A DNA stretch of 50,123 nt from Bacteroidales bacterium (lineage in GTDB: Bacteria; Bacteroidota; Bacteroidia; Bacteroidales; Prolixibacteraceae). The DNA lies in the NCBI GenBank assembly GCA_015654795.1, contig JAATGF010000142.1, forward strand, positions 1 to 50,123. The letters are read 5' to 3'. The notes under the pieces are model-generated. The model was not told where the DNA came from. It searched no databases and worked only from the letters and a program-made list of their open reading frames with translations. Positions 5,362 to 45,277 of this stretch are shown here, in pieces (the stretch's first letter is position 1; every line of letters starts with the position of its first letter). A program made the translations under genes and the position numbers.

Positions 5362-5373
5362 CTTGTTGTTTTT

Positions 5374-17705: not shown

Positions 17706-17835
17706 TATATAATGATACTACAACTCACATGAATCTTCTCCGTACCAACGCCGTACTACGTTTCAGTCATACTTGATTAAACATTTTTACATAATGCTTT
17801 ATTGTAGAATTAGGATGCTTCCAATTCAACTTTTG

Positions 17836-18244
17836 CAAATACGTAATGGGAATAAATGTCGTCTTTTGCCAATTCCGGATTTGTGGACTCCCGAAGCACA
17901 GTGCACTTTTGATGTATATTTTAATTCAAACAAACAGCCCGGATGGATTTGCCCCATATTCTCCTCGCACCTGCTCTATATCTGCTCTATGTTTGCTCTA
18001 TGTTTGGTCCATATCAAGTCTGGTATCAGGTCCTATACCCACATCGAATCCACAAACGAAGATTCTTAATGACCATAATGATTTTTTCAATGACGGCGAA
18101 GCCAATGACCTTTTCAATGACTTTTTAATAACCCTTAATGACATTCATCGCCCCATCGCCATGATTTTTCACACGCTCTCCCTCCTTCTCCCCACCGCCC
18201 TTTCCCACTTTTATAAATACGACATCTATTTATTCTCATCACTT
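17836..18244 (-). repeat. dispersed non-coding repeat element, copy A, with 11-bp tandem repeats
   Basis: This occupies the space between the IS1595 relic and the GH43 gene. Read on the minus strand it begins with a 29-bp terminal motif (18216-18244) ending ATGTCGTATT. The left arm shares AAAG, GAAA, GGCG and TGGGG with the copy at 45037. A run of imperfect GTCATTGAAAA-like repeats follows (about 18062-18145), then five 11-bp tandem units at 17952-18006 (CAAACATAGAG type), then the right arm ATCCATCCGGGCTGTTTGTT and CACTGTG. A degenerate inverted copy of the terminal motif lies near 17836-17863. Open frames here are short and do not resemble proteins, so I treat it as non-coding. Confidence 0.65.
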
Positions 18245-18274
18245 AAATATTTCATTATAATTTAATTTAACAAA

Positions 18275-19243
18275 TTATTTTCCCCATTCAGTTGTTTGTT
18301 TGACCATTTGAATGCTTCCATCCGGATTATAAAAAAGTTTATCCACGCAAACAGATCTTTGCCAATCGTTGAATTCCCCTTTATCACCCGATAGTTTGCT
18401 GTTATGATAAAACGTATACCATTGTCCTTTATATTCAACTATCGAACCATGATTGGTATAGCTGTCGGTGGGTTCCATGTAGATTCCTTTATATTCCCAG
18501 GGACCAGATATGCTTTTACTGGTAGCATATCGCATTCGGTTGTCTCCCTTTACGCCTTCTGTATCCTTGTTGGCATCGTGATTGTCAGAATAGGACAAGT
18601 AATATATCCCGTTTCTTTTATGAATCCAGGACGCTTCATGAAAATCGGCTAAACCTTCAACTGTTTTCAATTCGCCGTCAATTTCCATCATAGTATCTTT
18701 GAGCTTACCCATCATACATCTACCGCCTCCTCCGTAGAACAAATAAGCCTGACCATCGTCATCGACAAAAACGCATGGATCAATCATGGATGGAATATTT
18801 GGAATGTAACCTTGTACAACAAAATCTTTATCCGGGTATTTACTTGTCGCAACACCTATTTTCCAGGAGTTATTCCATTTTGTTTCACTTGGATGCGGAA
18901 AGAAAAAATAATAAGTACCGTTTTTATATGCGCAATCAGGCGCCCACATAAAACCACCTTCTTTTCTGCCCCAGGGCACATTGGATGCACGCAAAATTTC
19001 TCCGTGATCTACCCAGTTAACCATGTCGTCAGTAGAAAAAACATGATATTGATCCATCAAATCACATCCGCGCGGAGGCGAAATATCGTGCGACGGATAT
19101 ACATACAAACGTCCGTCTTGCCAAACATGCGCCGATGGATCAGCCGTGTACATGTGTATGATAAACGGATTCTTCTGAGCCATTGCTCCCGACAATATTC
19201 CTGTCATAAGGGATATTGTAAAAATCATTCTTTTCAAATTCAT
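18275..19243 (-). CDS. GH43 family glycoside hydrolase
   Basis: A 322-residue secreted single-domain enzyme with signal peptide MNLKRMIFTISLMTGILSGA. Catalytic residues are intact: Asp35 (YTADPSAHVW), Asp155 (MIDPCVFVD) and Glu203 (DFHEASW). It ends with the conserved RSVCVDKLFYNPDGS and a short tail. The expected activity is removal of arabinose or xylose side groups, or a related GH43 reaction. It lies downstream of the GH3 gene, separated by a DUF3823 remnant and a hairpin, and its 5' region is duplicated (decayed) at 8020-8225. Confidence 0.88.
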   Translation of the reverse strand: MNLKRMIFTISLMTGILSGAMAQKNPFIIHMYTADPSAHVWQDGRLYVYPSHDISPPRGCDLMDQYHVFSTDDMVNWVDHGEILRASNVPWGRKEGGFMWAPDCAYKNGTYYFFFPHPSETKWNNSWKIGVATSKYPDKDFVVQGYIPNIPSMIDPCVFVDDDGQAYLFYGGGGRCMMGKLKDTMMEIDGELKTVEGLADFHEASWIHKRNGIYYLSYSDNHDANKDTEGVKGDNRMRYATSKSISGPWEYKGIYMEPTDSYTNHGSIVEYKGQWYTFYHNSKLSGDKGEFNDWQRSVCVDKLFYNPDGSIQMVKQTTEWGK

Positions 19244-19348
19244 ATCATTAAAATCAAGAAATTAAACTAAAACATTTAAACTCATTACTATTTAACATCG
19301 GTTCGACCTAAGCTATGGTGGTAAATAAAAAAGACAGACTGAAACAAT

Positions 19349-19388
19349 AAATTATCCCGCTTATTCTGTATGTTCAGCGGGATAATTT
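19349..19388 (-). terminator. hairpin terminator, duplicate of the one at 8316
   Basis: The same 13-bp stem (AAATTATCCCGCT with AGCGGGATAATTT) and a similar loop, between the DUF3823 remnant and the GH43 start. It is part of the duplicated segment that also includes the GH43 5' end. It would end any transcript coming from GH3 and leave the GH43 with its own promoter. Confidence 0.65.
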
Positions 19389-19504
19389 TATAAAGCTTTG
19401 GACAAAATTGAATATTGCAATTTTGCACATTCGTTCTCTTAAAGACGAGTTCGAGCGTTTCAGATAGATCTGATAAATATTCAATACGTGTCCGCCATCA
19501 TTGA

Positions 19505-19700
19505 TTACGGTACGACAACCTTCACAATCGGCGAATAATTATATTTTCTATTTGCATCGTTTACAGCTGCTCCTACGCACGTAATAAGTATAACCAGGGA
19601 AAAGACCTATGCTATAGATGCCACTCGCGTCGTTATTGCCAACCTCTATTGATTTTTTTAAACCAATTGGATCATTGAGAAAATTATAATAGAAACATGG
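19505..19700 (-). pseudogene. C-terminal remnant of a DUF3823 lipoprotein gene
   Basis: The minus strand reads LNDPIGLKKSIEVGNNDASG, IYSIGLFPGYTYYV, then, after a 2-nt deletion, GAAVNDANRKYNYSPIVK and VVVP-stop. The last 90 bp are nearly the same as the end of the intact DUF3823 gene at 8416-9186 (GYTYYVRVGASVDDANRKYN). An in-frame stop at 19701-19703 closes the upstream side. The N-terminal 180 or so residues are absent; the GH3 gene now lies immediately upstream. Confidence 0.75.
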
Positions 19701-19747
19701 TTATAGTGGTGAAGCACAAGCTCCATCGCCGACAAACTCCGATTAAT

Positions 19748-22006
19748 TTATTTTGCAGCGACCACTAATTTACCCTGTTGACGAATATCTTCTGACGAAC
19801 TTCCTATCATGATCTTAAATTCTCCCGGTTCGACAACTCGTTTCATTTCACGGTTCCAAAGCCAAAGGGCTTCCGGGCCGACATTAAAGCTTATATCTTT
19901 ACTTTCGCCCGGTTGAAGCGTTACGCGGTTAAATCCTTTCAGTGCTTTCACCGGAGTTGTTACACTACCAACTTCATCGCGCACATATAATTGCACAACT
20001 TCTGTCCCTTCAACACTTCCAGTGTTTTTTACTGATACTTTTATTGTTGCAGTTCCGTCAATAGCCATCGTTTCCGGTGAGATTTGTATACCGGAATATT
20101 CAAAAGTTGTGTAACTCAGACCGTGACCGAAAACGAATAAAGGACCTTTCTGAAGATCCACATAGTTATGTTTCGACGAAGGTTTGTGGTAGTAATAGAA
20201 AGGGATCTGACCAACCGAACGAGGAAATGTGACCGGTAATTTTCCTGAAGGATTCACTTTGCCAAGTAAAACATCGGCAATAGCCAAACCTCCTTTTTCG
20301 CCTGAAAACCATGTTTCAACAATTGCCGGAACATTTTCAGCAACCCAATTGATAACAAGCGGTCTCCCGTTAAATAGGACGGCGACAATTGGCTTTCCTG
20401 TTGCTTGAATAGCTTTAATCAAATCCAACTGATTTTCACTCAGTTCAATATTCGAACGGTCTTTCCCTTCACCTACAATTTGTATATTCTCGCCTAAAAC
20501 AACGACGGCAACATCCGATCTTTTAGCAAGATCTACAGCCTTCTGCTTATTTGCATTTCCGGTCTTTTCGAATGTATAGCCTTTTTCATAACTAATTATC
20601 TGCGTGCTCCCAGCCCTTTGCTTTAAACCATCCAAAATCGATATACCAATTTTGTCGGGATTTGCATAGCCACCCGGATAAGTACTTTCAGCCAATTCGC
20701 CTATTACAGCAATCCGTAGTTTTTCATTTTTTAGCGGAAGTACACCCTGCTCATTTTTCAATAAAACAATACTTTCATGCGCGGCTTGCAAGGCTAATTG
20801 CTGATTCTCTTCTGTATGAAACACAGTCAGTTTCAAAGCCGGATCGACATATGGTTTTTCAAAAAGTCCTAGCATAAATTTGACCCTTAAAATATCGCGA
20901 ACAGCAACATTCAGGTCTTCTTCTGTAAGAGTTTTTTCAGCTAAAGCCTGATTGATTGCATCTTTAAAGCTTTTGTGGTCAAAATCGTAGAACTGCATAT
21001 TCAAACCTGCTTTTATCGTTTGAACCATCGCATCAGTCGTATCTTTTGCTGTCATATGACTGTTTACCGTCATCCGAATAGCTCCTAAATCTGAGAGTAC
21101 AAATCCTTTAAAGCCCCATTCCTTGCGCAAAACATCAGTAAGCAACCATCTGCTAGATACACAGGGAATTCCGTCCAGTTCATGATAAGCTGCCATAATT
21201 CCTTTGGCACCGCCTTCACGGACAGCTTTTTCAAAAGGAACCATATAGGTCGAACGTATTTCGCGCTCACCAATAAATACAGGCCCGATATTGCTACCGG
21301 CTTCGGGAAGACTATGTACAGCAAAATGCTTAGGCTCAGCAATTACCGTATTATTTTGATCAAGACCCTGTCCCTGCATCCCCTTCACGATTGCAACTCC
21401 ATTTGAAGCCACCAGATATGGATCTTCTCCATATGTTTCTTCAAGACGTCCCCAACGTGGGTCGCGGGCCAAATCCAAAACCGGACCAAGAATCATGTGA
21501 ATACCATGTGCCCGGCTTTCGGTCCCGATAATCCGACCAACTTTTCGGACAAGCGCAGTATCCCAGGCGCTGGCTAACTGAAGTGGAATAGGGAAAGTTG
21601 TACTTCCGTTTCCACAATATCCGTGAAGGCCTTCTTCTATAAATAAAACCGGAATTCCCAGACGGGTTTTTTCCACAGCATACTTTTGAATTTGATTGGT
21701 TATCTCTGCACTTAACGGATAAAAATCATGAATTGAGCCGATACCGGTATTGCCAAGTGCTGTCGCAGTTTTCTCTTCGGAATAGGAAACTGCATCATGT
21801 TTTTCCAACGTGGCAACCTCTTTTCCCCAGTACATATCCATCTGATTGATCTTTTCTTCAGTCGTCATCTGGCTGAGAAGGTCATCAACTCGTTTTTCTA
21901 CAGGTAAAGTTGAATCCTTAAAAGGATATTTTCCCGTTCCATTTTGTTTCGCACACGAAGCAAATACAAGGGTAATTATAAAATAGTAATAGCAGGTCTT
22001 CGTCAT
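19748..22006 (-). CDS. GH3 family beta-glycosidase lipoprotein
   Basis: A 752-residue protein with a lipoprotein signal (LVFASC, Cys18). The N-terminal GH3 TIM-barrel includes GPVLDLARDPRWGRLEETYG, the KHFAVHS motif and the nucleophile Asp306 in GFVLSDLGAI. The GH3 C-terminal alpha/beta sandwich follows (VVLGENIQIVGEGKDRSNIE; PIVAVLFNGRPLVINW), then a fibronectin-III-like domain (EGTEVVQLYVRDEVGSVTTP). Family activities are beta-glucosidase or beta-xylosidase. It acts in the periplasm or at the outer membrane, on oligosaccharides released by the other enzymes. It is 58 bp downstream of the oxidoreductase and probably shares its transcript. Confidence 0.92.
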   Translation of the reverse strand: MTKTCYYYFIITLVFASCAKQNGTGKYPFKDSTLPVEKRVDDLLSQMTTEEKINQMDMYWGKEVATLEKHDAVSYSEEKTATALGNTGIGSIHDFYPLSAEITNQIQKYAVEKTRLGIPVLFIEEGLHGYCGNGSTTFPIPLQLASAWDTALVRKVGRIIGTESRAHGIHMILGPVLDLARDPRWGRLEETYGEDPYLVASNGVAIVKGMQGQGLDQNNTVIAEPKHFAVHSLPEAGSNIGPVFIGEREIRSTYMVPFEKAVREGGAKGIMAAYHELDGIPCVSSRWLLTDVLRKEWGFKGFVLSDLGAIRMTVNSHMTAKDTTDAMVQTIKAGLNMQFYDFDHKSFKDAINQALAEKTLTEEDLNVAVRDILRVKFMLGLFEKPYVDPALKLTVFHTEENQQLALQAAHESIVLLKNEQGVLPLKNEKLRIAVIGELAESTYPGGYANPDKIGISILDGLKQRAGSTQIISYEKGYTFEKTGNANKQKAVDLAKRSDVAVVVLGENIQIVGEGKDRSNIELSENQLDLIKAIQATGKPIVAVLFNGRPLVINWVAENVPAIVETWFSGEKGGLAIADVLLGKVNPSGKLPVTFPRSVGQIPFYYYHKPSSKHNYVDLQKGPLFVFGHGLSYTTFEYSGIQISPETMAIDGTATIKVSVKNTGSVEGTEVVQLYVRDEVGSVTTPVKALKGFNRVTLQPGESKDISFNVGPEALWLWNREMKRVVEPGEFKIMIGSSSEDIRQQGKLVVAAK

Positions 22007-22064
22007 ATTCGTTTATATTTCTGATTTATTTGATTTTAAGCAACGAAACAGGAAAAAATATCTG

Positions 22065-23183
22065 TTACTTCTTTAACATTATCGCTTTCCCTGTTTTGGC
22101 TGACTCTCTTGCCGCTTCCAAGATCTTAACAACTATCATGTTGTTATCCAGGGAATAAAGATCATATTTCGACATCTTCACTTTTCCGTTCAGAACATCA
22201 GCAAAATAGTTAAACGGATCTTCATAAACTGCAATATCTTTTGCCGTAACTTGTGTTGATAATTCAGCCTTCATCGTTTTGTTTCGCAACAGCATACCCT
22301 TGTTATTCTGAGCAATAATATAGCCGGAATTACCATATATCTCCATATCCTTTCTGCCAAAGGGCCAGTTCCATGATGCCTGAATAATACATTGCGCATC
22401 AGGGTATGTAACGATAATGGTTGCCTCATCCTCTACTTTTGGATAAACTTCAGGTTTAAAATGTTGTGTAACTGCTGTCACCGAAACAGGCTCCTGTCCT
22501 TTCTGTAAATAGGTCATCAGATTTGCCCCGTAACAGCCAAAATCGATGAGCGCACCGCCTCCATTTTGAATAGGGTCAGTGAGCCAATCCAAAAAAACTT
22601 TGTCACAGCCAATTTCCTTAGGTCCCTGGTGCCCGTCGTGAATGACAACCTTTCTAAGTGTGCCCACAAAATTACTGTCGTTAACCAGCTGAAACGATTT
22701 TGCAGTTGTGGCATACCATGATGTTTCGTAGTCTGTTAGCAAATAAATATGGTATTTATCGGCAAGGTCTTTCATCTTTTTTGCATGTACCATATTTGTA
22801 GCAAGTGGCTTTTCAACCATAACATGAATTCCGCGGGGAGCACATGCTTCGACAACAGCCATATGCTCGAAAATTGAACCAAAAGCAACAACAGCTTCAG
22901 GCTTCACACTGTCTAACATTCGACCCAAATCATTATAAATCAACTTTGGATCGAAACCATATTTTTTCGCAGTATTCAGCGCTAATGTCTTATTTGTTTC
23001 AAAGACACCAACTAATTGAAAATCTGTCTTATTTTTCCGCCCTAAAAAGAACGGCGTATGCCCGTGTGTTACCCCTGCAATTGCAAGTCGAATAGGCTTA
23101 GTAACAGGCGTCTGTGCCTGCAAATCTGGTAAAACGGCCAGAAAAAGAACAAAAAGCAGGAAGAATTTTTTAATGATTTTCAT
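22065..23183 (-). CDS. secreted Gfo/Idh/MocA-family oxidoreductase
   Basis: A 372-residue protein with a Sec-type signal peptide (MKIIKKFFLLFVLFLAVLPD), the Rossmann start IRLAIAGVTHGHTPFF, and the family's lysine motif VEKPLATN (Glu124-Lys125-Pro126). The C-terminal beta-sheet domain contains GGALIDFGCYGANLM. These enzymes act on sugars with a tightly bound NAD(P); exported members are common in Bacteroidota polysaccharide loci, but substrates are mostly unknown. It is first in an apparent operon with GH3. Its upstream region holds the palindrome at 23519-23543. Confidence 0.87.
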   Translation of the reverse strand: MKIIKKFFLLFVLFLAVLPDLQAQTPVTKPIRLAIAGVTHGHTPFFLGRKNKTDFQLVGVFETNKTLALNTAKKYGFDPKLIYNDLGRMLDSVKPEAVVAFGSIFEHMAVVEACAPRGIHVMVEKPLATNMVHAKKMKDLADKYHIYLLTDYETSWYATTAKSFQLVNDSNFVGTLRKVVIHDGHQGPKEIGCDKVFLDWLTDPIQNGGGALIDFGCYGANLMTYLQKGQEPVSVTAVTQHFKPEVYPKVEDEATIIVTYPDAQCIIQASWNWPFGRKDMEIYGNSGYIIAQNNKGMLLRNKTMKAELSTQVTAKDIAVYEDPFNYFADVLNGKVKMSKYDLYSLDNNMIVVKILEAARESAKTGKAIMLKK

Positions 23184-23499
23184 AATTGAGTTGTATAATT
23201 AAACAATGATTAAATTTATAAGTAATTAAATAGACGGGGCAATCGCGACGTTAAAAATGATTCTTACAGTAAAATGCCTCAACATAATCCGAAATTTAGA
23301 TATTCAATCTGGTCGAATATCCGGAGTTACAAATAAATGGCAATTTATATCTCTCAATTATTAAGTAACTAATTATTTGCCAAATTGACCTAAATACAGG
23401 TTGTGAAGTTTTTTTATCAGGTTATTACATTGACATATATTTTTAGGTTTGTAACTTGGGCCTCATTTTACAAATATAGTTGAGACCCATTAACAACCC
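23184..23499. other. intergenic region upstream of the oxidoreductase
   Basis: AT-rich spacer with no open frame worth calling and no recognisable RNA. It presumably contains the promoter and 5' leader of the oxidoreductase-GH3 transcript, but I could not place a clean -33/-7 pair. Confidence 0.4.
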
Positions 23500-23543
23500 T
23501 ATTAATACTTAGTAAATGGCTTATTAATTATTTATTAATAAGC
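23500..23543 (-). promoter_or_regulatory. palindromic operator candidate upstream of the oxidoreductase-GH3 operon
   Basis: A 10-bp perfect inverted repeat, GCTTATTAAT-N5-ATTAATAAGC (23519-23543), preceded by ATTAATACTTAGTAAATG (23501-23518). The same inner palindrome TTATTAAT-N5-ATTAATAA and a similar flank occur at 41661-41719 upstream of the second SusC gene. It lies about 320 bp before the oxidoreductase start. A two-fold symmetric site of this size fits a dimeric regulator; the regulator is unknown. Confidence 0.5.
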
Positions 23544-23708
23544 TATTAATTTCTTAACCAACAGATTAGCTGAACGATAAACTGCAGGGAAATGGGACAA
23601 TTGGAGAATTAGCAAGGGAAAAATTGCAAGTAACCCGCTTATAGGAGGAGCTAATCGTAATTTAATGTACAATATGGAATGCGGCAGGCAGGGAAAATGT
23701 GCTTAATC

Positions 23709-23752
23709 AAGCATGATATAAGCATGACATAAAGGGTATAGGAAAGCAGGAA
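23709..23752. repeat. short degenerate 11-bp tandem repeat
   Basis: Four consecutive 11-bp units (AAGCATGATAT, AAGCATGACAT, AAAGGGTATAG, GAAAGCAGGAA), followed by AAAATCCATC. The period and flank recall the 11-bp arrays of the dispersed elements at 17952 and 45131, but similarity is weak. The rest of 23544-23907 shows nothing I can name and separates the broken GH2 from the next operon. Confidence 0.35.
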
Positions 23753-23907
23753 GAAAATCCATCTGAATGGGGTTAGATATACTAATGGAGTAATGCCCCA
23801 AAACATGGATTGGTAATATCAGGACAATGAAGAAAGAAGCACGTGCATAGGAGTTATTCCTGAAGTCTGCACGATCAGTTCCGTCAAATCACCAGGCCGT
23901 TTTCAGT

Positions 23908-25439: not shown

Positions 25440-25462
25440 TGACACAAAAATAAATTAATGAA

Positions 25463-26725: not shown

Positions 26726-26760
26726 GATTAAATATTTAATTAGTGTATTTCTTTGGGTTA

Positions 26761-27411: not shown

Positions 27412-27452
27412 TGAATTAAAATTTTAAATTGATACCGTGTGTTATTAAAGAT

Positions 27453-28970: not shown

Positions 28971-28973
28971 TAT

Positions 28974-30776: not shown

Positions 30777-30815
30777 AGTGTTTATTCTCTTAATTTTTCA
30801 GAAGGTGCTGTAGTG

Positions 30816-31754
30816 TTATTTCACTCCCCTGGTGGTTTGTACAACCGTTTTAATCGTTCCGTCGGCATTGAAAAATAGTTTATCGACGCAAACCGAGCGA
30901 AGGTTTCCTTTTCCTGAAATAGATTGATTATGGTAGAAAGCGTACCATTGGCCTTTGTATTCGACAACCGAGCCATGGCTGGTGTCGCATCCGGTTGGTT
31001 CGAGGTAAATGCCCTTGTGTTCCCACGGGCCAAGCGGACTTTTGCTCATAGCGTATCGTAGCTGATTTTGGCGCGGATTATTGTCGGCATAAGTCAGGTA
31101 GTAAATGCCATTTCGCTTAAACAGCCAGGCTGCTTCATGAAAATCAATCAGCCCGGTCATGTCCTTCATTTCGCCGTCAATTTCCACCATATTTTCCTTT
31201 AGCTTTCCGCCCTGGCATTTGCTTCCGCCGCCGTAAATCAGGTAAGCCTGCCCGTCGCCGTCGACAAAAACGCAAGGGTCGATCATGGCAAAACCGCCAA
31301 CGCTTTTAATGTATCCCTGGCTTTTGAAGTCGCTTGCCGGTTTTTTGCTGGTTGCCACTCCAATTTTCCAGGTGTTGTTCCAGTCTGATCCGCTCGGATG
31401 CGGGAAATAGTAGTAGTAAGTGCCGTTTTTATATGCGCAGTCGGGTGCCCACATGAAACCACCTTCCGGACGGCCCCATTCTACCTGTCCTGAATTCAGG
31501 ATTTCGCCGTGGTCTTTCCAGTTAACCATGTCGTCGGTTGAAAACACATGGTAGCGGTCCATCAAATCGCAACCACGCGGCGGATCAACATCGTGCGATG
31601 CATAAATGTAAAGTCGCCCGTCTTTCCATACATGAGCTGACGGATCGGCTGTGTATATGTGAGTTATGATCGGGTTCTTTGCCCAGCTGATGCTGGTCGA
31701 TAAAACACATAAAGCACACATGAATAAACTGGAGATAAGTATTTTGCGATTCAT
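30816..31754 (-). CDS. GH43 family glycoside hydrolase
   Basis: A 312-residue secreted enzyme (signal peptide ending near SISWA) with all three catalytic positions: Asp37 (YTADPSAHVW), Asp159 (MIDPCVFVD) and Glu207 (DFHEAAW). It lacks the NHDxxxDxEGVxGDNRMRYA stretch found in the other copies and reads YADNNPRQNQLRYA instead. This 8-10-residue shortening in a loop near the active site may alter specificity. The tail ends RSVCVDKLFFNADGT. It is upstream of the DUF6057 gene by 39 bp and downstream of the carbamoyltransferase, same strand. Confidence 0.87.
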   Translation of the reverse strand: MNRKILISSLFMCALCVLSTSISWAKNPIITHIYTADPSAHVWKDGRLYIYASHDVDPPRGCDLMDRYHVFSTDDMVNWKDHGEILNSGQVEWGRPEGGFMWAPDCAYKNGTYYYYFPHPSGSDWNNTWKIGVATSKKPASDFKSQGYIKSVGGFAMIDPCVFVDGDGQAYLIYGGGSKCQGGKLKENMVEIDGEMKDMTGLIDFHEAAWLFKRNGIYYLTYADNNPRQNQLRYAMSKSPLGPWEHKGIYLEPTGCDTSHGSVVEYKGQWYAFYHNQSISGKGNLRSVCVDKLFFNADGTIKTVVQTTRGVK

Positions 31755-31848
31755 GAATAATTGATTTTAATGCTATTAAATTGAGTTATAATAAAAATAG
31801 AACCAGATAAATCATTAGTTATTTGCATTTAAGTTTGGTACATAGATG

Positions 31849-33708: not shown

Positions 33709-33712
33709 AATT

Positions 33713-33862: not shown

Positions 33863-33871
33863 AGCCCAAGT

Positions 33872-36156: not shown

Positions 36157-36212
36157 TTTTAGTCAATCCACATGTAACTTCATAACATCTCAACATTGTA
36201 AACCGAAGAAAT

Positions 36213-36237
36213 AAGGGCATCCGAGATGGATGCCCTT
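36213..36237 (-). terminator. rho-independent terminator after the second SusC-SusD pair
   Basis: A perfect 10-bp stem AAGGGCATCC / GGATGCCCTT with a 5-nt loop, 10 bp past the SusD stop on the minus strand and followed by TTATTTCTT. It separates the SusC-SusD transcript from the SGNH-SxtJ-DUF5989-carbamoyltransferase cassette. Confidence 0.8.
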
Positions 36238-36247
36238 TAATGTTTAA

Positions 36248-37831
36248 TTAGTAACCAGGATTTTGCTTCCAGTTTGGATTTCTTTCCATTTCCGTCTGAG
36301 GAATTGGAGCAAGATACCTCGTTTTTAATTGCTCGCCCGAAGTATAAGTCGGATTTAATACGTTTTCCCAATATTGCGCCTTTTCATATTCGCCCACAAC
36401 CCGTTCCGAAATAATCTGAGGGAGCAATTCTAACCGCACAATATCAAACCAACGGACACCAAACTCTCCGGCACACTCATAGGCTCTTTCATGAACTACA
36501 GAATCGCGGAAAGCAATCTGGGAAAGGCCTGAAGTAAGATCTTTTAATCCGGCACGCTGGCGAACTAAATTGATGGCGTCGTATCCATCAGCTGTTGGAG
36601 CACCGCTTGCCATAGCAGAAGCTTCAGCATAATTCAGCAAAACCATTGGGTAACGGATCAAGTCCAAAGTTTTATCAGTACTTGGATTCATTTCCAGAAT
36701 CTCAGTATCAGTTTCTTTCAATCCATCTCCCATAGTTGTACCAGGAGCGGCAACGCCATAACGAAATTTTTTATAATAAGGATGTTGAGTGTTTGTTTTG
36801 GGGTCATCCCATGCCAAAAGTTGAAATGTATCATCAGCTTGTTTCTTTTTAATAACTGTTAAGAAAGTTTCATCTGTGCGTTTACATTTCGGAGCATTTC
36901 GGAAGAAATTAACTTCAGTGCAGAAATCATGCCAACCATTTTGGCCTTTTATAGATGTTTCATCATCCGGAACACAGAACTGACCTGTGCCTCTGCGTGG
37001 AAGACCGCCAGCTGTGTTGTATTGCAGGGCAAAAATAGCTTCTGAATTATTATTCGTTTTGAAAACATCTCCATAATCGGCCACCAACGAATATTTACCT
37101 GATTGGATAACTTCTTTTGCTTTAGTTGCAGCCAATGAATAATTACTGGTTTCTTTCAACGGGTACCCGGCCATATTTAAATAAACATCGGCTAAAAGTG
37201 CTTTTGCAGCATATTTGGTAGCTTTTCCTGGTTGTCCTGGCCATGAATCAGGTAAATAAGATTCAGCTTTTTGCAGGTCGTCGAGAATTACAGTATACAC
37301 TTCTTTCATCGGTTGTCTGTCCGGGCGGTCATCAACATCAATGCTTTCGGTAACAATTGGCAGATCCCCAAAAGTCCTGGTCAAATAATAGTATGAAAGG
37401 GCACGTATGAAATACGCCTGACCAACAACATTGTTTTTCTGCGAATCGGAAGTAAATTCCACTTTATCAATGGCCGAAATGATTGCGTTAGCCTGGTAAA
37501 TGCTTCTCCAGGGACCACGCCACTGGCCCTCCATGTTTGCATTTCCGGCACTTCCCTGTAGCCGGTCAAAGTCGCGGAAATCGATCTTATTTGAACCAGG
37601 GTGGGTAGCTAAATCATCAGATCCAAAGTAAGATGTGAATCCACCTGCAAATCCCCAGGCATCATCAGGAGCCAGGGCACGGTACATCGCTGCTATTACA
37701 CCTTCAAGCTCTTCCGGTGTTTTAAAATATGTTCCAGGAGTTAAGGTAGCTTTAGGATTTTCAACCAAATCAAGACATCCTGAGAGCATCGATAACATAA
37801 AAATCGCAAATAAAAAATATCCTTTTTTCAT
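36248..37831 (-). CDS. SusD/RagB family glycan-binding lipoprotein (second pair)
   Basis: A 527-residue lipoprotein, lipobox LSMLSGC (Cys19). It shows the SusD landmarks NNVVGQAYFIRALSYYYLTR, TFGDLPIVTES, the C-terminal LIRYPMVLLNYAEASAMA, and FRDSVVHERAYECAGEFGVR with WFDIVRLE. It partners the SusC at 37866, from which it is separated by 34 bp. It differs clearly in sequence from the SusD at 9214 and probably binds a different oligosaccharide. A hairpin terminator follows it, so the operon is a plain SusC-SusD pair without an encoded accessory lipoprotein. Confidence 0.93.
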   Translation of the reverse strand: MKKGYFLFAIFMLSMLSGCLDLVENPKATLTPGTYFKTPEELEGVIAAMYRALAPDDAWGFAGGFTSYFGSDDLATHPGSNKIDFRDFDRLQGSAGNANMEGQWRGPWRSIYQANAIISAIDKVEFTSDSQKNNVVGQAYFIRALSYYYLTRTFGDLPIVTESIDVDDRPDRQPMKEVYTVILDDLQKAESYLPDSWPGQPGKATKYAAKALLADVYLNMAGYPLKETSNYSLAATKAKEVIQSGKYSLVADYGDVFKTNNNSEAIFALQYNTAGGLPRRGTGQFCVPDDETSIKGQNGWHDFCTEVNFFRNAPKCKRTDETFLTVIKKKQADDTFQLLAWDDPKTNTQHPYYKKFRYGVAAPGTTMGDGLKETDTEILEMNPSTDKTLDLIRYPMVLLNYAEASAMASGAPTADGYDAINLVRQRAGLKDLTSGLSQIAFRDSVVHERAYECAGEFGVRWFDIVRLELLPQIISERVVGEYEKAQYWENVLNPTYTSGEQLKTRYLAPIPQTEMERNPNWKQNPGY

Positions 37832-37865
37832 AATTTATTCCTTTTAAAATGATACTACTTTTGAA

Positions 37866-40800
37866 TTAGAAATCAACTCGTAAACCCAACGTGTAGGTTT
37901 TCGGATTAGGTACAACACCCATTTCAAGACCTTGTGTTCTTGCATCAGTTGAACTGTTGACTTCAGGATCAAAACCAGGGTAATTGGTAATCGTGAATAA
38001 GTTTTGCCCACTTACGAATAAATCCAATTTACTCAGGAAGATTTTATTAATCAGTCTTTTAGGTACACTATAGGTAAGCGACACGTTTTTTAACTTGATG
38101 TAACTACCGTCGTAAACAAACCGGCTACTATTAAAATAGTTGGCCGAGGTACCTCCTTGCACGGGTATATCAGTTTCGTGTTCGGGCGTCCAGGCATTTA
38201 GTACATCTTTTATAGTAGCATTTCTTGCTATTCCGTGACCTCCCCACATTGTGCCAAGTGTTTGAGAATAAATATCATTCCCTGACATTCCCTGAAACAT
38301 AATACTCAGGGTAAAGTTCTTATATTGAATATCATTACTAAACCCAAAAGAGAAATCGGGAGTACCATTTCCTATCTCCATTCTGTCTTCTGGTGTGTAC
38401 GCGTTGTCATTATTCTTATCAAAATATTTGGCATCACCCGGTTTCATTCCAAATTTAGCGGCCTCAGCTGCTTCGCTTGATTTCCAGGTTCCGAGAAATT
38501 TATATCCCCAGAATTCACTGAGTGGTTTGCCTACTATTAACCGTGAAACACCAGCTCCGAAAGTTCCAATTCCGTTTGCCTCCAGATTATTTTCGCCCAT
38601 TAAGTCAACAACCTTATTTCTGTTGAATGAAATTGTAAAGTTTGTTGTCCAGCTAAAATTCTTTTTTGAAACAGGCAAACCGCTTAATGATGCCTCAAAT
38701 CCTTTATTGTTCAATTTACCCATATTGCGGTTATAGTTTCCTCCTCCCATGTAGTAAGGAGCAGCATAAGAGTATAATAAATCGTCAACATCCTTATTGT
38801 AATAATCTGCAGTAAAAGTCAATTTACCGTTATACAGAATTACATCTACCCCAAAGTCTGTTTGTTTGGCATGTTCCCACGACAATTTTTTGGAAACAGC
38901 AGTTCCCAGAGGGGTTGTAGGGATGGCTGTCGTTCCGTCATAATAATATGGGTTACCTGTATTTACCTGCGCAATTGTCGAATAAGCACCAACAGCCTGA
39001 TTTCCGGTTTCACCATAACTTAATCTGACTTTTAAACCGGAAATAACCGGATGATCTTTCAAAAAGTTTTCCTGAGCAATATTCCATGCAATTGCGGCAG
39101 AAGGGAAATTATCATATTTGTCGGTCAGTTTTGATGAACCATCCCGGCGAACACTCATCGTTACCAAATAACGATTCTTGTACGCATAATTTATACGAAA
39201 CATATACGATTGTAATGCATCAGAAGAATATCCCGAAGAAGTAAGCTGCGTACCACCTAATCCTAAGTTATAATAGGTTAGGGCCTGAGTAGACAGATTT
39301 CGGGCAGTTGCAGTGACATTTACATTTTCGTATTTGCTTTGTTCATACAGCAAAGTTGCAGTAAGGTGATGATCTCCAAAATTTTTATCGTAAGTTAAAA
39401 AGTTACTGTTTTGCCACGATTTCCAATCATTAGAATAGATGACAGCTTCAGACGTACTGTTAGTCAACGGACCGGAATATCTCTGATTAAACTGAGTCCC
39501 GGTTGAATAGGTATTATTCGAGGTAAAAGTAAGGCCATCTAATATTTTATAAGTTAAGATACCTGTACCAACTGTAGTTTTGCTACTGTTGTCGTCGAGT
39601 CTGTCATACGATTGTGCTACCGGATTGTAACCATTGGATGCCCATGCTGAACTTAGATTATAATTACCTTGGCTATTCCTGATGGGTAAAGTAGGATCAA
39701 AAATTAACGCACTTGCAAATGGATCATATACGTCGCCACCAAAATTATTATTTCTGCTTTTGGGTTCGATATACGAAAAGTTGAATTTGAAATCCAAACG
39801 GTCATTCGCCTTTACATCTAAATTGGCCCTTACATTCGATTTTTTATAATACGAATTAATCAACATCCCGGGCTGATCTAAACTATTAAATGAAACACGG
39901 TAACGAACAGCGTTAGTCCCACCGGAAACGCTTAAATCATAATTTTTTACCCAAGGATTTCTGGTAACGGCATCAAGCCACTTAGTACCGCCTGAGGCCT
40001 GCAATTGTGAGATTTCAGCATCAGAAAAAGATCCGGCCTTAGTATATTTATTAATGACCTGAGCAAATTCAGCGCCCGACAAAAGATCCATTTCCCCAGG
40101 TAGACTCAGATTACTGAACCATGTGTTAAAACTAACAACCGTTTTCCCTGATTTCCCTGATTTTGTAGTGATCAAAACAACGCCATTTGTTCCTCTGGAA
40201 CCATATATTGCAGTAGAAGATGCATCTTTCAGAATCTCAATTGATTCAATGTCATTCGGATTTAATGCATCAATTCCACCTCCAATATTTCCATCAATAA
40301 CGTAGAGTGGTTCGTTACTCCCGGTGATTGAACTCGCCCCCCGGATCTTTACAGATAACCCTTTCCCCGGTTGGCCACTACTGCTTATTACCTGTACTCC
40401 GGGTGTTGTTCCTTGTAACGATTGCTCGATACGGGTAATTGGCCTTTTAACCAATTCTTCAGTTTTAATTGAACTTACAGCTCCGGTCACATCCGATTTT
40501 CTTTGAACCCCGTAACCTACAGCAACAACTTCAACGAGTTCGATGGTCTCTTCCTGCATAACCACATCGACTTTCTGATTTCCATTAACAGGAACTTCCT
40601 GAGTTTTCAGACCTACAAATGAGAAAACAAGAACCCCATTTTCGGGAACCCTGCTTAATGAGTATTGACCATCTGCGTCGGTGAGTGCTCCGTTTGAGGT
40701 TCCTTTAACCACGATTGTTACACCTGGAATGGGACTACCAGTACCATCTGTAACTTTTCCGGTGATAGTTTTTCCTTGCTGCGACAAATTCTGATCCTTT

Positions 40801-40946
40801 ATAATGTTATCAGAATAATTAGCTGATACCTGAAAAGAACATAGAATTAGGAACAAAAAAAGTGTCCAATCTCTTAGAAAAAAATGCTTCTTTCTTAAAT
40901 AACAGTTTGTTTCATGTTTTTTCATAGTTTGAATAAAATTTTTCAT
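37866..40946 (-). CDS. SusC/RagA TonB-dependent receptor (second pair, no STN domain)
   Basis: A 1026-residue receptor. The signal segment is LFLFLILCSFQVSA after a long basic N-terminus; Met8 is an alternative start. There is no STN domain. The chain begins with a carboxypeptidase-D-like repeat (ITGKVTDGTGSPIPGVTIVV), the TonB box region (EVVAVGYGVQRKSDVTGAVS), the plug (VKIRGASSITGSNEPLYVID) and a barrel ending YTLGLRVDF. Lacking STN, it should not depend on sigma/FecR signalling and is more likely controlled by another type of regulator; a palindrome lies upstream at 41687. Its leader is disrupted by an inserted 436-bp element and by short duplications of its own first codons. Confidence 0.93.
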   Translation of the reverse strand: MKNFIQTMKKHETNCYLRKKHFFLRDWTLFLFLILCSFQVSANYSDNIIKDQNLSQQGKTITGKVTDGTGSPIPGVTIVVKGTSNGALTDADGQYSLSRVPENGVLVFSFVGLKTQEVPVNGNQKVDVVMQEETIELVEVVAVGYGVQRKSDVTGAVSSIKTEELVKRPITRIEQSLQGTTPGVQVISSSGQPGKGLSVKIRGASSITGSNEPLYVIDGNIGGGIDALNPNDIESIEILKDASSTAIYGSRGTNGVVLITTKSGKSGKTVVSFNTWFSNLSLPGEMDLLSGAEFAQVINKYTKAGSFSDAEISQLQASGGTKWLDAVTRNPWVKNYDLSVSGGTNAVRYRVSFNSLDQPGMLINSYYKKSNVRANLDVKANDRLDFKFNFSYIEPKSRNNNFGGDVYDPFASALIFDPTLPIRNSQGNYNLSSAWASNGYNPVAQSYDRLDDNSSKTTVGTGILTYKILDGLTFTSNNTYSTGTQFNQRYSGPLTNSTSEAVIYSNDWKSWQNSNFLTYDKNFGDHHLTATLLYEQSKYENVNVTATARNLSTQALTYYNLGLGGTQLTSSGYSSDALQSYMFRINYAYKNRYLVTMSVRRDGSSKLTDKYDNFPSAAIAWNIAQENFLKDHPVISGLKVRLSYGETGNQAVGAYSTIAQVNTGNPYYYDGTTAIPTTPLGTAVSKKLSWEHAKQTDFGVDVILYNGKLTFTADYYNKDVDDLLYSYAAPYYMGGGNYNRNMGKLNNKGFEASLSGLPVSKKNFSWTTNFTISFNRNKVVDLMGENNLEANGIGTFGAGVSRLIVGKPLSEFWGYKFLGTWKSSEAAEAAKFGMKPGDAKYFDKNNDNAYTPEDRMEIGNGTPDFSFGFSNDIQYKNFTLSIMFQGMSGNDIYSQTLGTMWGGHGIARNATIKDVLNAWTPEHETDIPVQGGTSANYFNSSRFVYDGSYIKLKNVSLTYSVPKRLINKIFLSKLDLFVSGQNLFTITNYPGFDPEVNSSTDARTQGLEMGVVPNPKTYTLGLRVDF

Positions 40947-41027
40947 AGTTTGAATTAAAGTTGTAAATTAAAAAACATCATTTTTTAGAAAAAATGCTTC
41001 TCTCTTAAATAACAGTTTGTTTTTCAT

Positions 41028-41463
41028 AAGTACTGCGAATAAATAGATGTCGTATTCTCTGTATTTGTTTACTTTCAAAAGGCAGTAAAATAAAAATACA
41101 TGATATCAACGTAATACAAAAATCACTTTCTATTGTAAAATGTCTGAATCTCTTAGTTATCGGTTAACTCTTTCGCGGCCTCTGGTGGCCCCTCAGTTTA
41201 ATTTGATCTGAATCAGGTAAATCTTCCCGACCTTTATCGTACCGATAAAGGCACCACCACGCGTCCTTCGTATCTGGTCTGTATTAACTCCGCACCTTCC
41301 CCGTATCAAAATCAGGTCTTTTTTTTCTGTAATCGTTTATGAAATAGGGATGATGCATTAGTCCATATAGGAAAAACCTGAAGGCCTACATAAGTATCAA
41401 CGATGTATTGCAAAATACAATTCAGCCTTTACAAAATACGACATTATATCATTTCCGGTACTT
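41028..41463. mobile_element. MITE-like non-coding element (copy D) in the SusC leader
   Basis: A 436-bp segment bounded by inverted 29-bp ends (41028-41056 and 41435-41463). Both begin AAGTAC and end ATGTCGTATT, with a variable middle. It is flanked by a perfect 14-bp direct repeat AGTTTGTTTTTCAT (41014-41027 and 41464-41477), as a target duplication would be, although AGTTTGTTTTTCAT-like repeats also exist nearby. It has no open frame of note. Inside is a perfect 9-bp hairpin CCTTTATCG-TAC-CGATAAAGG (41231-41251). The same terminal motif occurs in copies at 17836-18244, 42012 and 45037. Confidence 0.7.
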
Positions 41464-41660
41464 AGTTTGTTTTTCATAGCTTGTTTTTCATAATTCATAG
41501 TTTGTTTTTCATAGTTTGAATTAAAAAACATCATTTCATTCATTGATGATGATGAATTGATTTTTTGAGTGGTTTAACAGTTTTTACATAAGCAAAGTTT
41601 TTAAGGAATTAATTCATATCGATAACGGGAACAAAATTAAAGAGGGGTGATTAATATTAG

Positions 41661-41719
41661 GATTAATATTTGCTAAATGCGGGTATAATTATTTATTAAT
41701 TTTTTATTAATAAATAATT
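41661..41719 (-). promoter_or_regulatory. palindromic operator candidate upstream of SusC (second pair)
   Basis: A perfect inverted repeat with 14-bp arms, AATTATTTATTAAT-N5-ATTAATAAATAATT (41687-41719), next to GATTAATATTTGCTAAATG (41661-41679). Its core TTATTAAT-N5-ATTAATAA and the neighbouring ATTAATA(C/T)TT..TAAATG motif are shared with 23500-23543. It now lies 740 bp from the SusC start, but only about 300 bp if the 436-bp inserted element is removed, similar to the distance in the other operon. Confidence 0.5.
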
Positions 41720-42011
41720 CAACATATCCCAAATGGCTTATCGGTCTGAAAAACAGTTAATTTGTGAGAATGGATAGCTTTATGAGAATGGATAGCGAGA
41801 ACATGAATTAACCCGATTTTAACCTGTGCGGAGGTATCACTGTATTTTAATGAGGATTTATGGATTGCTGCATATAAATTTGAACAGAATCAACGACATG
41901 AATTACCCCATTTCCTATAGAAAATCAGTAAGACTGATTCTCGTCTCTTGAAGATAAATTGCATTCAAATCTTATTTTCCTTTGAGATTCGGATGCGATT
42001 ATTGGATATAT
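41720..42011. other. intergenic spacer between divergent operons
   Basis: It contains a short direct repeat AGAATGGATAGC (near 41768-41779 and 41784-41797) but no open frame, RNA or terminator that I recognise. It separates the minus-strand SusC operon from repeat copy C and the plus-strand receptor. Confidence 0.35.
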
Positions 42012-42130
42012 AAGTACCAGAAATGAAATAATGTCGTATTCACAAAAACGGGAAAAGGCGAGTCAAGTCAGGACGAGAGACAGAGAGAGGGAGTGTATTA
42101 AACCAGGTATGGACCAAACACAGAGCAGGT
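42012..42130 (+). repeat. dispersed non-coding repeat element, copy C (truncated)
   Basis: The 29-bp terminal motif (42012-42040: AAGTACCAG, then ATGTCGTATT) is followed by CACAAAAACGGGAAAAGGCG, matching the left arm of the copy at 45037. A purine-rich stretch follows, then three 11-bp units (CAGGTATGGAC, CAAACACAGAG, CAGGTAAAACC). The right arm found in copies A and B is missing. From 42131 to 42489 I see only AT-rich leader sequence for the downstream receptor gene and no confident promoter. Confidence 0.6.
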
Positions 42131-42489
42131 AAAACCTTTTCAAAACATGTTTTTACAAGAAATATGTAGCTAATTTTTCACGGACGCCGAAGGAAATATA
42201 ATCATAATATAGGGTTTGGCCCCTTTTCTTATTGACCCACCTCAACCGTTACAGAGTTCCCTTTCTTCTGCGTTTTCCCCTGGATTACTTTTTTTAATCC
42301 GCTTTTCTGATTCGCCCAGTTAAGTATTTGTTGTTCGAAAATGAACACCAACTGTTCAGATTTGTAGAAAAGCAATGTGCTGGTTATTTTCAGTATGCTT
42401 ATGTATGAAATTGGTATATAGTGCGGTGTGTTGTTTGGCACGAATGATGACAATCTTGGTCAGGAATATTAAAACTTTAAATTTATATT

Positions 42490-44859
42490 ATGCGACCAAA
42501 TTTTATCATTTTAATCCTGACTTTGTTCCCGCTACTGGGACTTGCCCAAAACCAGATAAAAGGAATAGTAAATGATCCCGCAACATCAAATCCGGTTTCA
42601 TATGCAACTGTTGCGTTGTACTCATTGCCGGATTCAACGATGAAGACCGGAGTTGTAACTAATCAGGACGGGCTATTTGCTTTTAATAACCTCAAGAAGG
42701 GGTTGTACTTCTATGAGGTTAGTTTTGTGGGATTTAAGTCAAGCCGAAGTAAATCAATTTCACTAGATGGAAAACAGGGTGTTGTCGATTCAGGGAAAAT
42801 TCTTTTGGAGGAGAAGACTGAAACGCTTGCCCAGGTAGAGGTTGTTGGTGAACGGCTCAAAGGTACTGAAGCAGTTGATCGTACGATTTACACGATCCCC
42901 GAATCTGCCGTTAAGGTTGCGGGATCAGGAACAGATATTTTACGGCGTATTCCATCTGTACAGGTCGATTTAAGTAATAATATTTCACTTCAGGGAAACA
43001 CCAATATCCTGATTTTGATTGACGGGAAAGAGCGCGATAATAATTTTATTGCACAGCTCGATCCCAAGAGTATTGACAAAGTTGAGGTTATCACTAATCC
43101 TTCTTCGAAATATGATGCCGGCGTACGCGGAGTGATCAATGTTATTCTGAAAAAAGAGAAACGTCAGGGGATCAGCGGTTCTGCCGATCTTGAAATACCA
43201 ACCAACAGTGACCATTATATCTCATCATCTTATGGTTCACTTGATTATGGAACCGGGAAATTCAGGTTTTTCAGTTCGGTGAACAGCCATGCCGAAGGTT
43301 TCGCGAATGTAAAAGATTTTAACAGTGAAAATGGATCAAGTCTGTATCAGGCGAAGGGTGATGGTCGGTTTAGTTTTGGTATGGCAGTTATCCACTATGG
43401 GTTTGACTATTTTATCAATGATAAAAATACCTTTAACTTTTATGCAAACTATAATCCAACCCAGTTTAATATGGATTATAATCTTCAAAACAAGATGATT
43501 GATAATGGGGAAGTTAGCAACAGTTTTACCACTGATTCCAAATCGCATGACTCGCGTAATGGTCAGTTTTACTCTATCTTTTATAAAAAGGAGATGAAAA
43601 AACAGGGACATCAGATTACACTTGACCTAAGCTACTATGACTCTAAGGCTACTACAAATAACAGCTATATTGAACAGCAGTATTTACCCGATTTCTCATC
43701 TCCGACAGATCAACCAACGACGAGAACCGAAAAATTGATGCCGGGAAGACAATCGGTAAATACAAAAATTGATTACACGTTACCAATCAATGATAAATAT
43801 TCCTTTGAAGCCGGTGTTCAGAACTACATGCAATATATTGATGATCAATATGATTATTCGAACAGCGCCTCCAGTTTTTTCGATTATAAAGAAATTCGTT
43901 ATGCAGGTTATTCAAGGTTAAGCACCAAGTTCAAGAAATTAAGCATTCAGGGTGGTTTGCGTGCTGAGTATTCCGATATTTATATTTCGGATGCGAAAAC
44001 AACTGATTACTTCTTTTTACTTCCAAATGCGTCTGTTCAGTATTCTTTTGAAAATCAGCAGAGTTTGAAATTATTATTTACAAGGTCAATCGATCGGCCC
44101 GGGAGTGGTGATCTGAATCCGTCGGTCACCGTTGTAGATGCTTACAATATTTCGCGAGGAAACCCACACCTTGATCCGTCATACACAAACAGAATCCAGC
44201 TTACATACAGCAAAAATATCAATTCAAGTTTTATTTCGCCTGAGCTATATTACGACCATAAGGGTGATGTATATCAAAAAGTTATTAAAGTGAATAGCCA
44301 GAATGTAAGTGAAAGTTATATCGACAATCTGGGTACTGCTGACGAATTTGGACTTGGCCTGTCAGCATCAATAAAAGTGAACAAATGGTTGATGATCAAC
44401 CCCTATTTCAGGGGATTTTATAGTCACACAAATAGTTTTGTTAATGCAGATTTTAATATTGATGCAAAGGAAGATTTCGCATGGATGGGAAATATTTATG
44501 CAACGGCAACGCTTACGAAGGGTCTTAATTTTTGGTGTTATGCAACTTACGCAAGTCCGGTAACTACAATGCAGAGTACGCGTTACCGGGATGCGCTTTA
44601 TCTGGTTGGTTTTGAAAAAAGTATCTGGAAAGATAAAGGTAAGATCGGAATTAACTGGTACGAACCTTTTAAGTCAGATTTCAGATTTAACCGTGTTGTC
44701 GCTAAAGGTTCCGGAATCTATCAGGATGATGATAATTTTGTAAAACTTCGGACGCTTATATCCTTGAAATTCACCTATCGTTTTAACAAAGGGAAAGAGG
44801 TGAAAAAACTTGAACGCCAGAAAAGTCTCGAAAGCGACGGGAAAGGCGGATTAGGCTAG
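42490..44859 (+). CDS. outer-membrane beta-barrel TonB-dependent receptor family protein
   Basis: A 789-residue protein with signal peptide MRPNFIILILTLFPLLGLAQ, a carboxypeptidase regulatory-like domain (residues about 22-105, SNPVSYATVALYSLPDS; SFVGFKSSRSKSI), a plug domain (GTDILRRIPSVQVDLSNNIS; ILILIDGKERDNN; IDKVEVITNPSSKYDAGVRG) and an outer-membrane beta-barrel of the 'OMP_b-brl_3' type ending FKFTYRFNKGKE. It is shorter than SusC and has no SusD partner. Proteins of this group are common orphan receptors in Bacteroidota; ligand unknown. It is a single-gene plus-strand unit with its own terminator, flanked on both sides by copies of the dispersed repeat in the same orientation. Confidence 0.87.
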   Translation: MRPNFIILILTLFPLLGLAQNQIKGIVNDPATSNPVSYATVALYSLPDSTMKTGVVTNQDGLFAFNNLKKGLYFYEVSFVGFKSSRSKSISLDGKQGVVDSGKILLEEKTETLAQVEVVGERLKGTEAVDRTIYTIPESAVKVAGSGTDILRRIPSVQVDLSNNISLQGNTNILILIDGKERDNNFIAQLDPKSIDKVEVITNPSSKYDAGVRGVINVILKKEKRQGISGSADLEIPTNSDHYISSSYGSLDYGTGKFRFFSSVNSHAEGFANVKDFNSENGSSLYQAKGDGRFSFGMAVIHYGFDYFINDKNTFNFYANYNPTQFNMDYNLQNKMIDNGEVSNSFTTDSKSHDSRNGQFYSIFYKKEMKKQGHQITLDLSYYDSKATTNNSYIEQQYLPDFSSPTDQPTTRTEKLMPGRQSVNTKIDYTLPINDKYSFEAGVQNYMQYIDDQYDYSNSASSFFDYKEIRYAGYSRLSTKFKKLSIQGGLRAEYSDIYISDAKTTDYFFLLPNASVQYSFENQQSLKLLFTRSIDRPGSGDLNPSVTVVDAYNISRGNPHLDPSYTNRIQLTYSKNINSSFISPELYYDHKGDVYQKVIKVNSQNVSESYIDNLGTADEFGLGLSASIKVNKWLMINPYFRGFYSHTNSFVNADFNIDAKEDFAWMGNIYATATLTKGLNFWCYATYASPVTTMQSTRYRDALYLVGFEKSIWKDKGKIGINWYEPFKSDFRFNRVVAKGSGIYQDDDNFVKLRTLISLKFTYRFNKGKEVKKLERQKSLESDGKGGLG

Positions 44860-44884
44860 TCAGCATCCGTATCCACATATTTTT

Positions 44885-44939
44885 CAAGAGGTTGCCCTAT
44901 TGGTCGGAGAACAGGATCAAAGGCAATCTCTTGTTTTTT
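44885..44939 (+). terminator. rho-independent terminator of the beta-barrel receptor gene
   Basis: Inverted repeat CAAGAGGTTGCC (44885-44896) with GGCAATCTCTTG (44922-44933), a 25-nt loop, and a run of six T at 44934-44939. It lies 26 bp after the receptor stop codon on the plus strand. Confidence 0.7.
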
Positions 44940-45036
44940 GAAGTTTTTATTTGTATCTTTATGCGTTAATAGATTTATTTTTAGGACTTAAATTTGCTTG
45001 CCTAAATATTTCTCATGAGGTTGTAGATTTTATCAT

Positions 45037-45277
45037 AAGTACCAGCCAGAAATGAAATAATGTCGTATTTGCAAAAGCGTGAAAAGGCGATGGGGCGAGT
45101 CAAAGAATCTTTGATAAACGCGGCATGAACCAAACATGAATCAAACATGAATCAAACATGAATCAAACATGAATCAAACATAGAGCAGGTATAGAGCGGG
45201 TACGAGGGAAATATGGAGCAAACCCATCCGGGCTGTTTGTTTCAATTATGATGAATATGTATTAAAAGCGCACTGTG
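45037..45277 (+). repeat. dispersed non-coding repeat element, copy B, with eight 11-bp tandem units
   Basis: It begins with the terminal motif (45037-45069, AAGTACCAGCC, then ATGTCGTATT), followed by the left arm GAAAAGGCGATGGGGCGA. From 45131 to 45218 there are exactly eight 11-bp units: four CAAACATGAAT, then CAAACATAGAG, CAGGTATAGAG, CGGGTACGAGG and GAAATATGGAG. The right arm is CCCATCCGGGCTGTTTGTTT, ending AAAAGCGCACTGTG. The same order is present in copy A at 17836-18244 on the other strand. I did not find an inverted second terminus on its right side. Confidence 0.7.

Follow-up and report, generated by a model that had tools for sequence, protein, structure and literature searches.

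Three stretches of DNA in a Prolixibacteraceae genome carry the same end motif beside arrays of 11-bp tandem units, which raises the question of whether they are mobile elements with a repetitive but passive interior or carriers of an array that is itself functional. The window, i.e., the whole 50,123-nucleotide stretch of DNA that was analyzed, is contig C95 of a 3.68-Mb genome assembly that comprises 180 contigs and is 69% complete. A preliminary description, made from the letters alone, had placed three copies of a dispersed family in it, and all three places are right within a few bases. The motif at their ends had also been recognized in a MITE-like element at 41,027, and this common end is seen in both the self-comparison of the window and a scan with an end profile. 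The features are listed below, where the label MITE anticipates the reading that is argued for in the text.

17702–17843, plus strand: the greater part of a second MITE subtype that lacks recognizable end repeats and has degenerate 11-bp units, abutting the main-family copy
17844–18245, minus strand: main-family MITE copy with left terminal repeat, purine-rich and GTCATTG modules, 11-bp array, right arm and truncated right end
17922–17944, minus strand: right-arm core of this copy, of the ATCCGGGCTGTTTGTTTCAATTA type
17945–18010, minus strand: six in-phase 11-bp units, counted outward from the right arm in 11-base steps
18216–18245, minus strand: left 30-bp terminal inverted repeat of the same copy, with TA (profile score 46.8)
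41027–41464, plus strand: MITE with two IS630-type terminal repeats (41027–41056 and 41435–41464; profile scores 47.6 and 27.3) and an interior unlike that of the main family
41127–41339, plus strand: interior module common to elements with other ends, with a hairpin at 41231–41251 and 11-bp units at 41264–41307
42011–42132, plus strand: partial main-family copy with left terminal repeat (42011–42040), a short purine-rich part and two 11-bp units
45036–45278, plus strand: main-family copy with left terminal repeat containing four extra bases (45036–45069), array and right arm; the right terminal repeat is absent
45127–45225, plus strand: nine in-phase 11-bp units, i.e., GAACCAAACAT, four times GAATCAAACAT, AGAGCAGGTAT, AGAGCGGGTAC, GAGGGAAATAT and GGAGCAAACCC

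We propose, with a probability of about 0.86, that these copies are non-autonomous IS630-type transposons (MITEs), which would depend on a transposase supplied in trans and whose interior would be passive cargo containing a slipping 11-bp minisatellite. A puzzling repeat would then find its explanation in IS630-type MITEs that have multiplied to high numbers.

Within the window, the 17,844 and 45,036 copies match each other in inverted orientation over 91 nt at 86% (17922–18012 against 45158–45248), and tandem arrays of period 11 are reported by TRF at 45124–45181 (5.3 copies, 97%, score 109) and at 17972–18006 (score 56). The array is variable, as had been described, whereas the unit numbers first given for the two copies, eight and five, do not hold, since the in-phase count is nine and six. 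At no more than one mismatch, the end motif ATGTCGTATT matches 13 times in the window, compared with a mean of 4.59 in shuffled sequences, none of 100 of which reaches 13. At 17843/17844, the main-family copy is fused to the remnant of another MITE subtype; the segment 17702–17843 aligns with L043, L156 and L078 at scores of 141, 145 and 115, respectively, the maximum of 50 shuffles against L043 being 62.

The common end is a 30-bp terminal inverted repeat of the form TAAGTA-N14-ATGTCGTATT, which starts with TA. In a profile built from 90 unique ends, the repeat is 30 bp long, with T in first place in 81 and A in second place in 87 of them, and the flanks beyond it are nearly random, with a weak A at −3 (49/90) and A or T at −1 (71/90). 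A search in which the middle part was allowed to vary from 11 to 17 bases retrieved 19 ends in four genomes, and the middle is exactly 14 bases long in all of them. In the source genome, the full 30-base end gives 73 matches at up to three mismatches and its reversed control none, while the 16-base core of the end at up to two mismatches gives 190 against 40 for the control; the family thus occurs far above chance, and its preliminary description as dispersed and non-coding, with variable 11-bp arrays, is supported. The right part of the element occupies at least 41 strong places in this genome, a lower bound because 40 of 224 candidates were scored. The fetched stretches contain 60 right arms, of which 57 are distinct after the removal of two poor ones and one duplicate.

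The pairing of ends is less complete than their number would suggest. At a loose cut-off, the profile scan yields 23 paired elements of 171–651 bp and 77 single ends; at a score of at least 20, the fetched stretches hold 106 distinct ends, 38 of them within a listed pair, and both ends reach this score in 15 of the 23 pairs, a low pairing that counts against the MITE reading. Reading frames bear on both sides. While 46 of the 60 right-arm copies are free of overlap with ORFs of at least 90 aa, the other 14 do overlap one, which likewise counts against MITEs; 13 of these overlap ORFs of 95–172 aa, and one shares 56 bases with a neighboring 519-aa ORF. A 139-aa ORF spans the 17,844 copy and has no match in a Pfam search, and no ORF of at least 80 aa is present at 45,036–45,278. 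Terminal inverted repeats, short length, high dispersed copy number, duplication of a TA target and, in the window copies, the lack of a recognizable transposase gene inside are thus found together here, and in the tests made for an IS630-derived MITE the family, judged by its sequence, behaves as one.

One and the same 30-bp end links seemingly unrelated intergenic sequences across Prolixibacteraceae. Of 140 genomes of the family, 12 contain it as a 30-mer, the source genome among them, with no match for the controls, and at 12 of 21 end loci in relatives a second, weaker end lies in reach, delimiting elements of 162–509 bp with other interiors. No empty site appeared in another strain, and a search of 100 relatives for the right part at an E-value of 1e-5 had no hit; both count against the MITE reading. 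Two exact patterns have no match in viral contigs. At several of the relatives' loci (L087, L092, L098, L099 and L101), the IS630-type end is the same as here and the interior contains a ATTGCTTCGTCG...CTCGCAATGAC-type repeat, which we take to be one known from many bacteria.

The identity of the end follows from an element that still encodes its transposase. In the relative G101, a 1,035-bp element (L131:1501–2535) has both 30-bp repeats facing each other and two ORFs of 129 and 169 aa between them. The 169-aa ORF matches DDE_3 (8e-31) and the NCBIfam model transpos_IS630 (4.9e-33, above the cut-off). The hits of the 129-aa ORF are helix-turn-helix models and, below the cut-off, transpos_IS630. 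When named genomes were scanned with the 169-aa ORF, 57 transposase loci emerged, among them loci in Prolixibacteraceae, other Bacteroidales, Lutibacter, Flavobacterium and Paludibacter and, at greater distance, in Saprospiraceae and Poribacteria; in 47 of the 57, the terminal repeat lies at a fixed, expected place 3' of the transposase gene, so that the ends match an IS630-family element. Among the ten exceptions, a near match at this place fails the test in L186, L187, L188 and L198; the protein match is shorter and the core out of register in L183 and L204; the contig ends too early in L184; and L190, L197 and L230 are distant relatives without the repeat. The element had initially been described as not being a standard IS, a view that these ends do not support; its arms are, accordingly, part of a known IS as far as the ends are concerned, although not in the interior.

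A test for a resident transposase with matching ends, as had been suggested, turned up a decayed relic in the source genome. The only relative in a protein search is a stretch on contig C54 with 14 stops, at which the end-profile scan detects no end above background, and the Pfam model DDE_3 (PF13358) has no match in the 69% complete assembly; within the genus, DDE_3 is found in 7 of 18 genomes, in six of them above the cut-off. The partner in the source genome is either dead or missing from the assembly, since a multi-copy partner may be missing from one that is incomplete and divided into so many contigs. The missing intact partner is counted against the MITE reading. A candidate autonomous element on contig C25 was rejected, as it consists of ordinary genes.

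The best direct evidence for the putative insertion at TA is the single case of L163, in which a 216-bp MITE is nested in another MITE; when the flanks are joined with one TA, they can be aligned to the uninterrupted copies L029 and L150 with no gap where they meet. At the level of sequence comparison, matching ends, a fixed end length, a TA at the boundary, one nested TA duplication and a transposase-bearing element in a relative are thus in evidence, and the end common with the IS630 element, together with the TA duplication, identifies the elements as probable IS630-type MITEs. Local TTTTTCATAGTTTG-type repeats flank the 41,027 element at 40904–40973 and 41463–41518 and can mimic a long target duplication.

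The mechanism that we envisage begins with an IS630-family transposase, supplied in trans, that would recognize the 30-bp terminal repeat, excise the element and join it at a TA, which would be duplicated in the process. The transposase of a relative, or a similar one in this lineage, may have moved the copies. Interior modules were presumably exchanged between element types by recombination, and the 11-bp minisatellite would have expanded and contracted in whole units, probably through slippage or unequal recombination.

The interiors, many of which contain an 11-bp array, are mosaics of modules, as their sequences indicate. In many copies of the main family, a purine-rich part with 8-bp units is followed by GTCATTG units of about 12 bp, the 11-bp array and then the right arm. 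The fraction of matching positions is 0.524 at a lag of 11, 0.47 at 22 and 0.44 at 33, compared with 0.294 in shuffles, with small secondary excesses of up to 0.34 at lags of 4, 7, 15, 18 and 29; these values come from 57 related copies, and their z-scores are hence not independent. The register of 11 bp is kept in most copies, although unit numbers vary widely: some copies have almost no array, while L002, the longest, reaches about 17 units. Further element types of the genome contain 11-bp arrays of their own, and the period is 11 in 20 of 29 arrays, a biased sample because the loci were chosen for these elements.

Modules are also shared across end types. The module at 41127–41339 aligns with L244 at a score of 214 (167 of 209 aligned bases identical; maximum of 40 shuffles, 35), and it is present at 23 places; left ends of the GGATCAAGCTGAA type accompany it at six of these (two sharing one) and right ends of the GAATTCTGTCTTGATC type at seven, with both at two places; the same interior thus occurs between unrelated ends. 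The 23 places, including L244 (the place of L079), L172 and L242, represent a second MITE-like type, some copies of which have GGATCAAG...CTTGATCC ends; it contains a CCTTTATCG...CGATAAAGG hairpin and a TCCGTACCTGG-type 11-bp array, and its interior is the one that it has in common with the window at 41127–41339.

We found no evidence that the array itself does something. The right-arm copies are mostly intergenic, and the four gene arrangements around the 44 of 60 copies with both neighbors occur 13, 11, 11 and 9 times, without orientation bias. Main-family arrays are unstructured as RNA on both strands, with z-scores of −0.3 to +2.1 against shuffles, and the fold of the module at 41,220–41,330 (z −1.0) and that of L244 (+0.6) are similarly unremarkable. 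Per kb, indels amount to 7.1 bases in the array (23 in 3,245, seven of them from one poorly aligned copy) and, in the right arm, where the counting was not quite the same, to 8.8 openings or 21 bases; they are thus rarer in the array by a modest margin at most. With orientations balanced, arrays unstructured and indels depleted modestly at most, the role in DNA bending or as a protein array that had been suggested from the length of the unit is not supported.

A rival reading nevertheless holds that the array is functional, with one unit per helical turn, and that a protein array, of the host or the transposase, or bent DNA keeps the spacing at 11. It draws on the register kept in most copies and over the long array of L002, on the several sequence types of period 11 in one genome, where the loci were chosen for these elements, and on period-11 arrays in other genera; set against a depletion of indels that is modest at most, the widely variable unit numbers, with the array nearly absent in places, and the lack of orientation or neighbor bias, we consider it quite improbable. 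It has also to be asked whether the pyrimidine strand, with YC about every 11 nt, could serve as a portable Rho-utilization site and the elements as transcription terminators, since an 11-nt spacing resembles the YC spacing of Rho sites and the main-family arrays are unstructured on both strands. A terminator is expected downstream of genes on the right strand, however, and the orientations are balanced; moreover, the relatives' array loci lie between convergent genes in 3 of 19 cases, against 18 of 135 neighboring pairs in a sample of G058, where the 19 are those with both neighbors among 24 loci that include overlapping matches to the same arrays. This makes a Rho site very unlikely. A third reading, as a coding sequence or a structured non-coding RNA, for which the ORF across the 17,844 copy and the hairpin within the 41,127–41,339 module might speak, is scarcely credible: Rfam has no match at the gathering score in the window or in five loci that carry elements or arrays of this sort, shuffled sequences fold as well as the main-family arrays do, the 139-aa ORF lacks a Pfam match, the 45,036 copy is free of ORFs of at least 80 aa, and 11 is not a multiple of three. 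In addition, a Bacteroidota-type promoter pattern occurs in none of nine elements (shuffle mean, 0.08).

Returning to the proposed IS630-type MITEs, a further point concerns the recurrence of the period itself. Plain slippage does not explain why period 11 recurs with other sequences in other genera, and this is counted against the best explanation. A pattern for the second array type has 63 matches in the source genome and occurs in 4 of 139 other genomes, once or twice each; its reversed control is unexpectedly frequent in genus g12 (G058, G047, G161 and G028), and a search with the control pattern gives 52 matches in G047, 37 in G058, five in G161, three in G044 and one in G028. Many period-11 arrays of g12 form long inverted arms around a short loop, and among all the sequences folded, strong hairpins were confined to two arrays of G058 (z −10.1 and −5.4). 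Such dispersed hairpins, with arms made of 11-bp arrays, e.g., TTCGTCCATGG, are seen on G058:C1 and in G047 (loci among L255–L276 and L285, around 9354) and lie outside long ORFs in most loci. No IS630-type end was detected up to 400 bp away from the 24 array loci or from four G058 arrays, the best score being 5.5.

A survey of sampled stretches indicates that the period is not a trait of the whole family. In 200 kb of G058, four arrays lie outside long ORFs and all have period 11, with 11 and its double as the only tandem periods; two of the four were already known and two are new, with other units, and three of the ten stretches sampled held a known place, two having been picked for it. By comparison, no period-11 array lies outside long ORFs in 200 kb of G101, and the 218 kb sampled from the same genus, in 16 stretches, are free of tandem arrays altogether. 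In other genera, 20 stretches that had not been picked for arrays (315 kb) contain arrays of various periods, among which 11 is found a single time, within coding DNA; another 20 from other families (236 kb) contain none of period 11. Four stretches picked for a known array were tallied separately. Period 11 as a family-wide trait was therefore rejected, as the 36 unpicked stretches of the family show no such preference. We judge the recurrence in other genera to be real but patchy. That the 11-bp period is under a mechanism or constraint independent of sequence seems unlikely; the facts cited for it are the occurrence in at least two MITE types here, the g12 hairpins and single places in other genera. 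Eleven base pairs are also one turn of an A-form duplex. If true, a dispersed module that is propagated or maintained one helical turn at a time would amount to a new type of repeat element, residing inside MITEs here, and the recurrence of the period in several genera poses a concrete question that closed genomes could decide. At L254 (G028:C1:3581383), a reading frame that by eye resembles the first half of an IS3-like transposase is preceded by an 11-bp hairpin array.

The nearest published parallel that we found is BrickBuilt, a MITE of Porphyromonas gingivalis with a 23-nt tandem unit, IS5-like 12-bp ends, 19 copies in ATCC 33277 and irregular target duplications, as given in the available passages of its description (PMC4596501). 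According to these, both are intergenic Bacteroidales MITEs with a spacer-free internal tandem array, a leader and tail with inverted repeats and ends that match an IS, and other MITE types of the genome have similar ends. They differ in that the unit here is 11 bp, the ends are 30 bp long and IS630-type, the target is TA, at least 57 right arms are present and a module is common to different end types. The family is also distinct from CRISPR, as had been stated, and from described RNA repeats, its units being contiguous, without spacers, and without an Rfam match. Nearest in modular design is BOX, whose boxB module, at about 45 bp, is longer than the unit described here. BOX of Streptococcus pneumoniae resembles the present elements in the variable number of its middle module, its target duplications and terminal repeats like those of the resident ISSpn2, and differs in the predicted RNA fold of boxB and in the IS; the relevant passages mention no 11-bp units (PMC3049150). 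RUP of the same species is a MITE with IS630-Spn1-like ends, but it is a simple 107-bp element for which these passages mention no tandem array (PMC3049150). MITECca01 of Cardinium, with 169 copies, is likewise a lineage-specific MITE expansion in Bacteroidota, although it derives from an IS982-family element and no minisatellite is mentioned in the portion available (PMC9769881). From the IS630 family itself (NCBIfam NF033545, Pfam DDE_3), whose members have terminal repeats of the same kind in L131 and its relatives, the window elements differ in that no transposase gene was found in them. The BrickBuilt paper is cited in a 2024 review of prokaryotic MITEs, in whose text a term search finds none of the words "tandem", "IS630" and "modular"; in titles and abstract openings of the open-access literature searched, no description of 11-bp arrays of this kind was found. 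The element type, an IS630-derived MITE, is known, and the repeat-filled version is set apart as new by its unit, ends, target and module sharing. It would be the second case after BrickBuilt of a MITE-borne minisatellite in this part of Bacteroidota, here with an interior that occurs between different ends.

Repeated paralogous genes are present at 4396–6353, 18275–19243 and 30816–31754, and the product of the second is a member of glycosyl hydrolase family 43. The window also contains a SusD-type gene (36248–37831), a TonB-receptor gene (37866–40946) and sigma/FecR genes; it is probably a polysaccharide utilization region.
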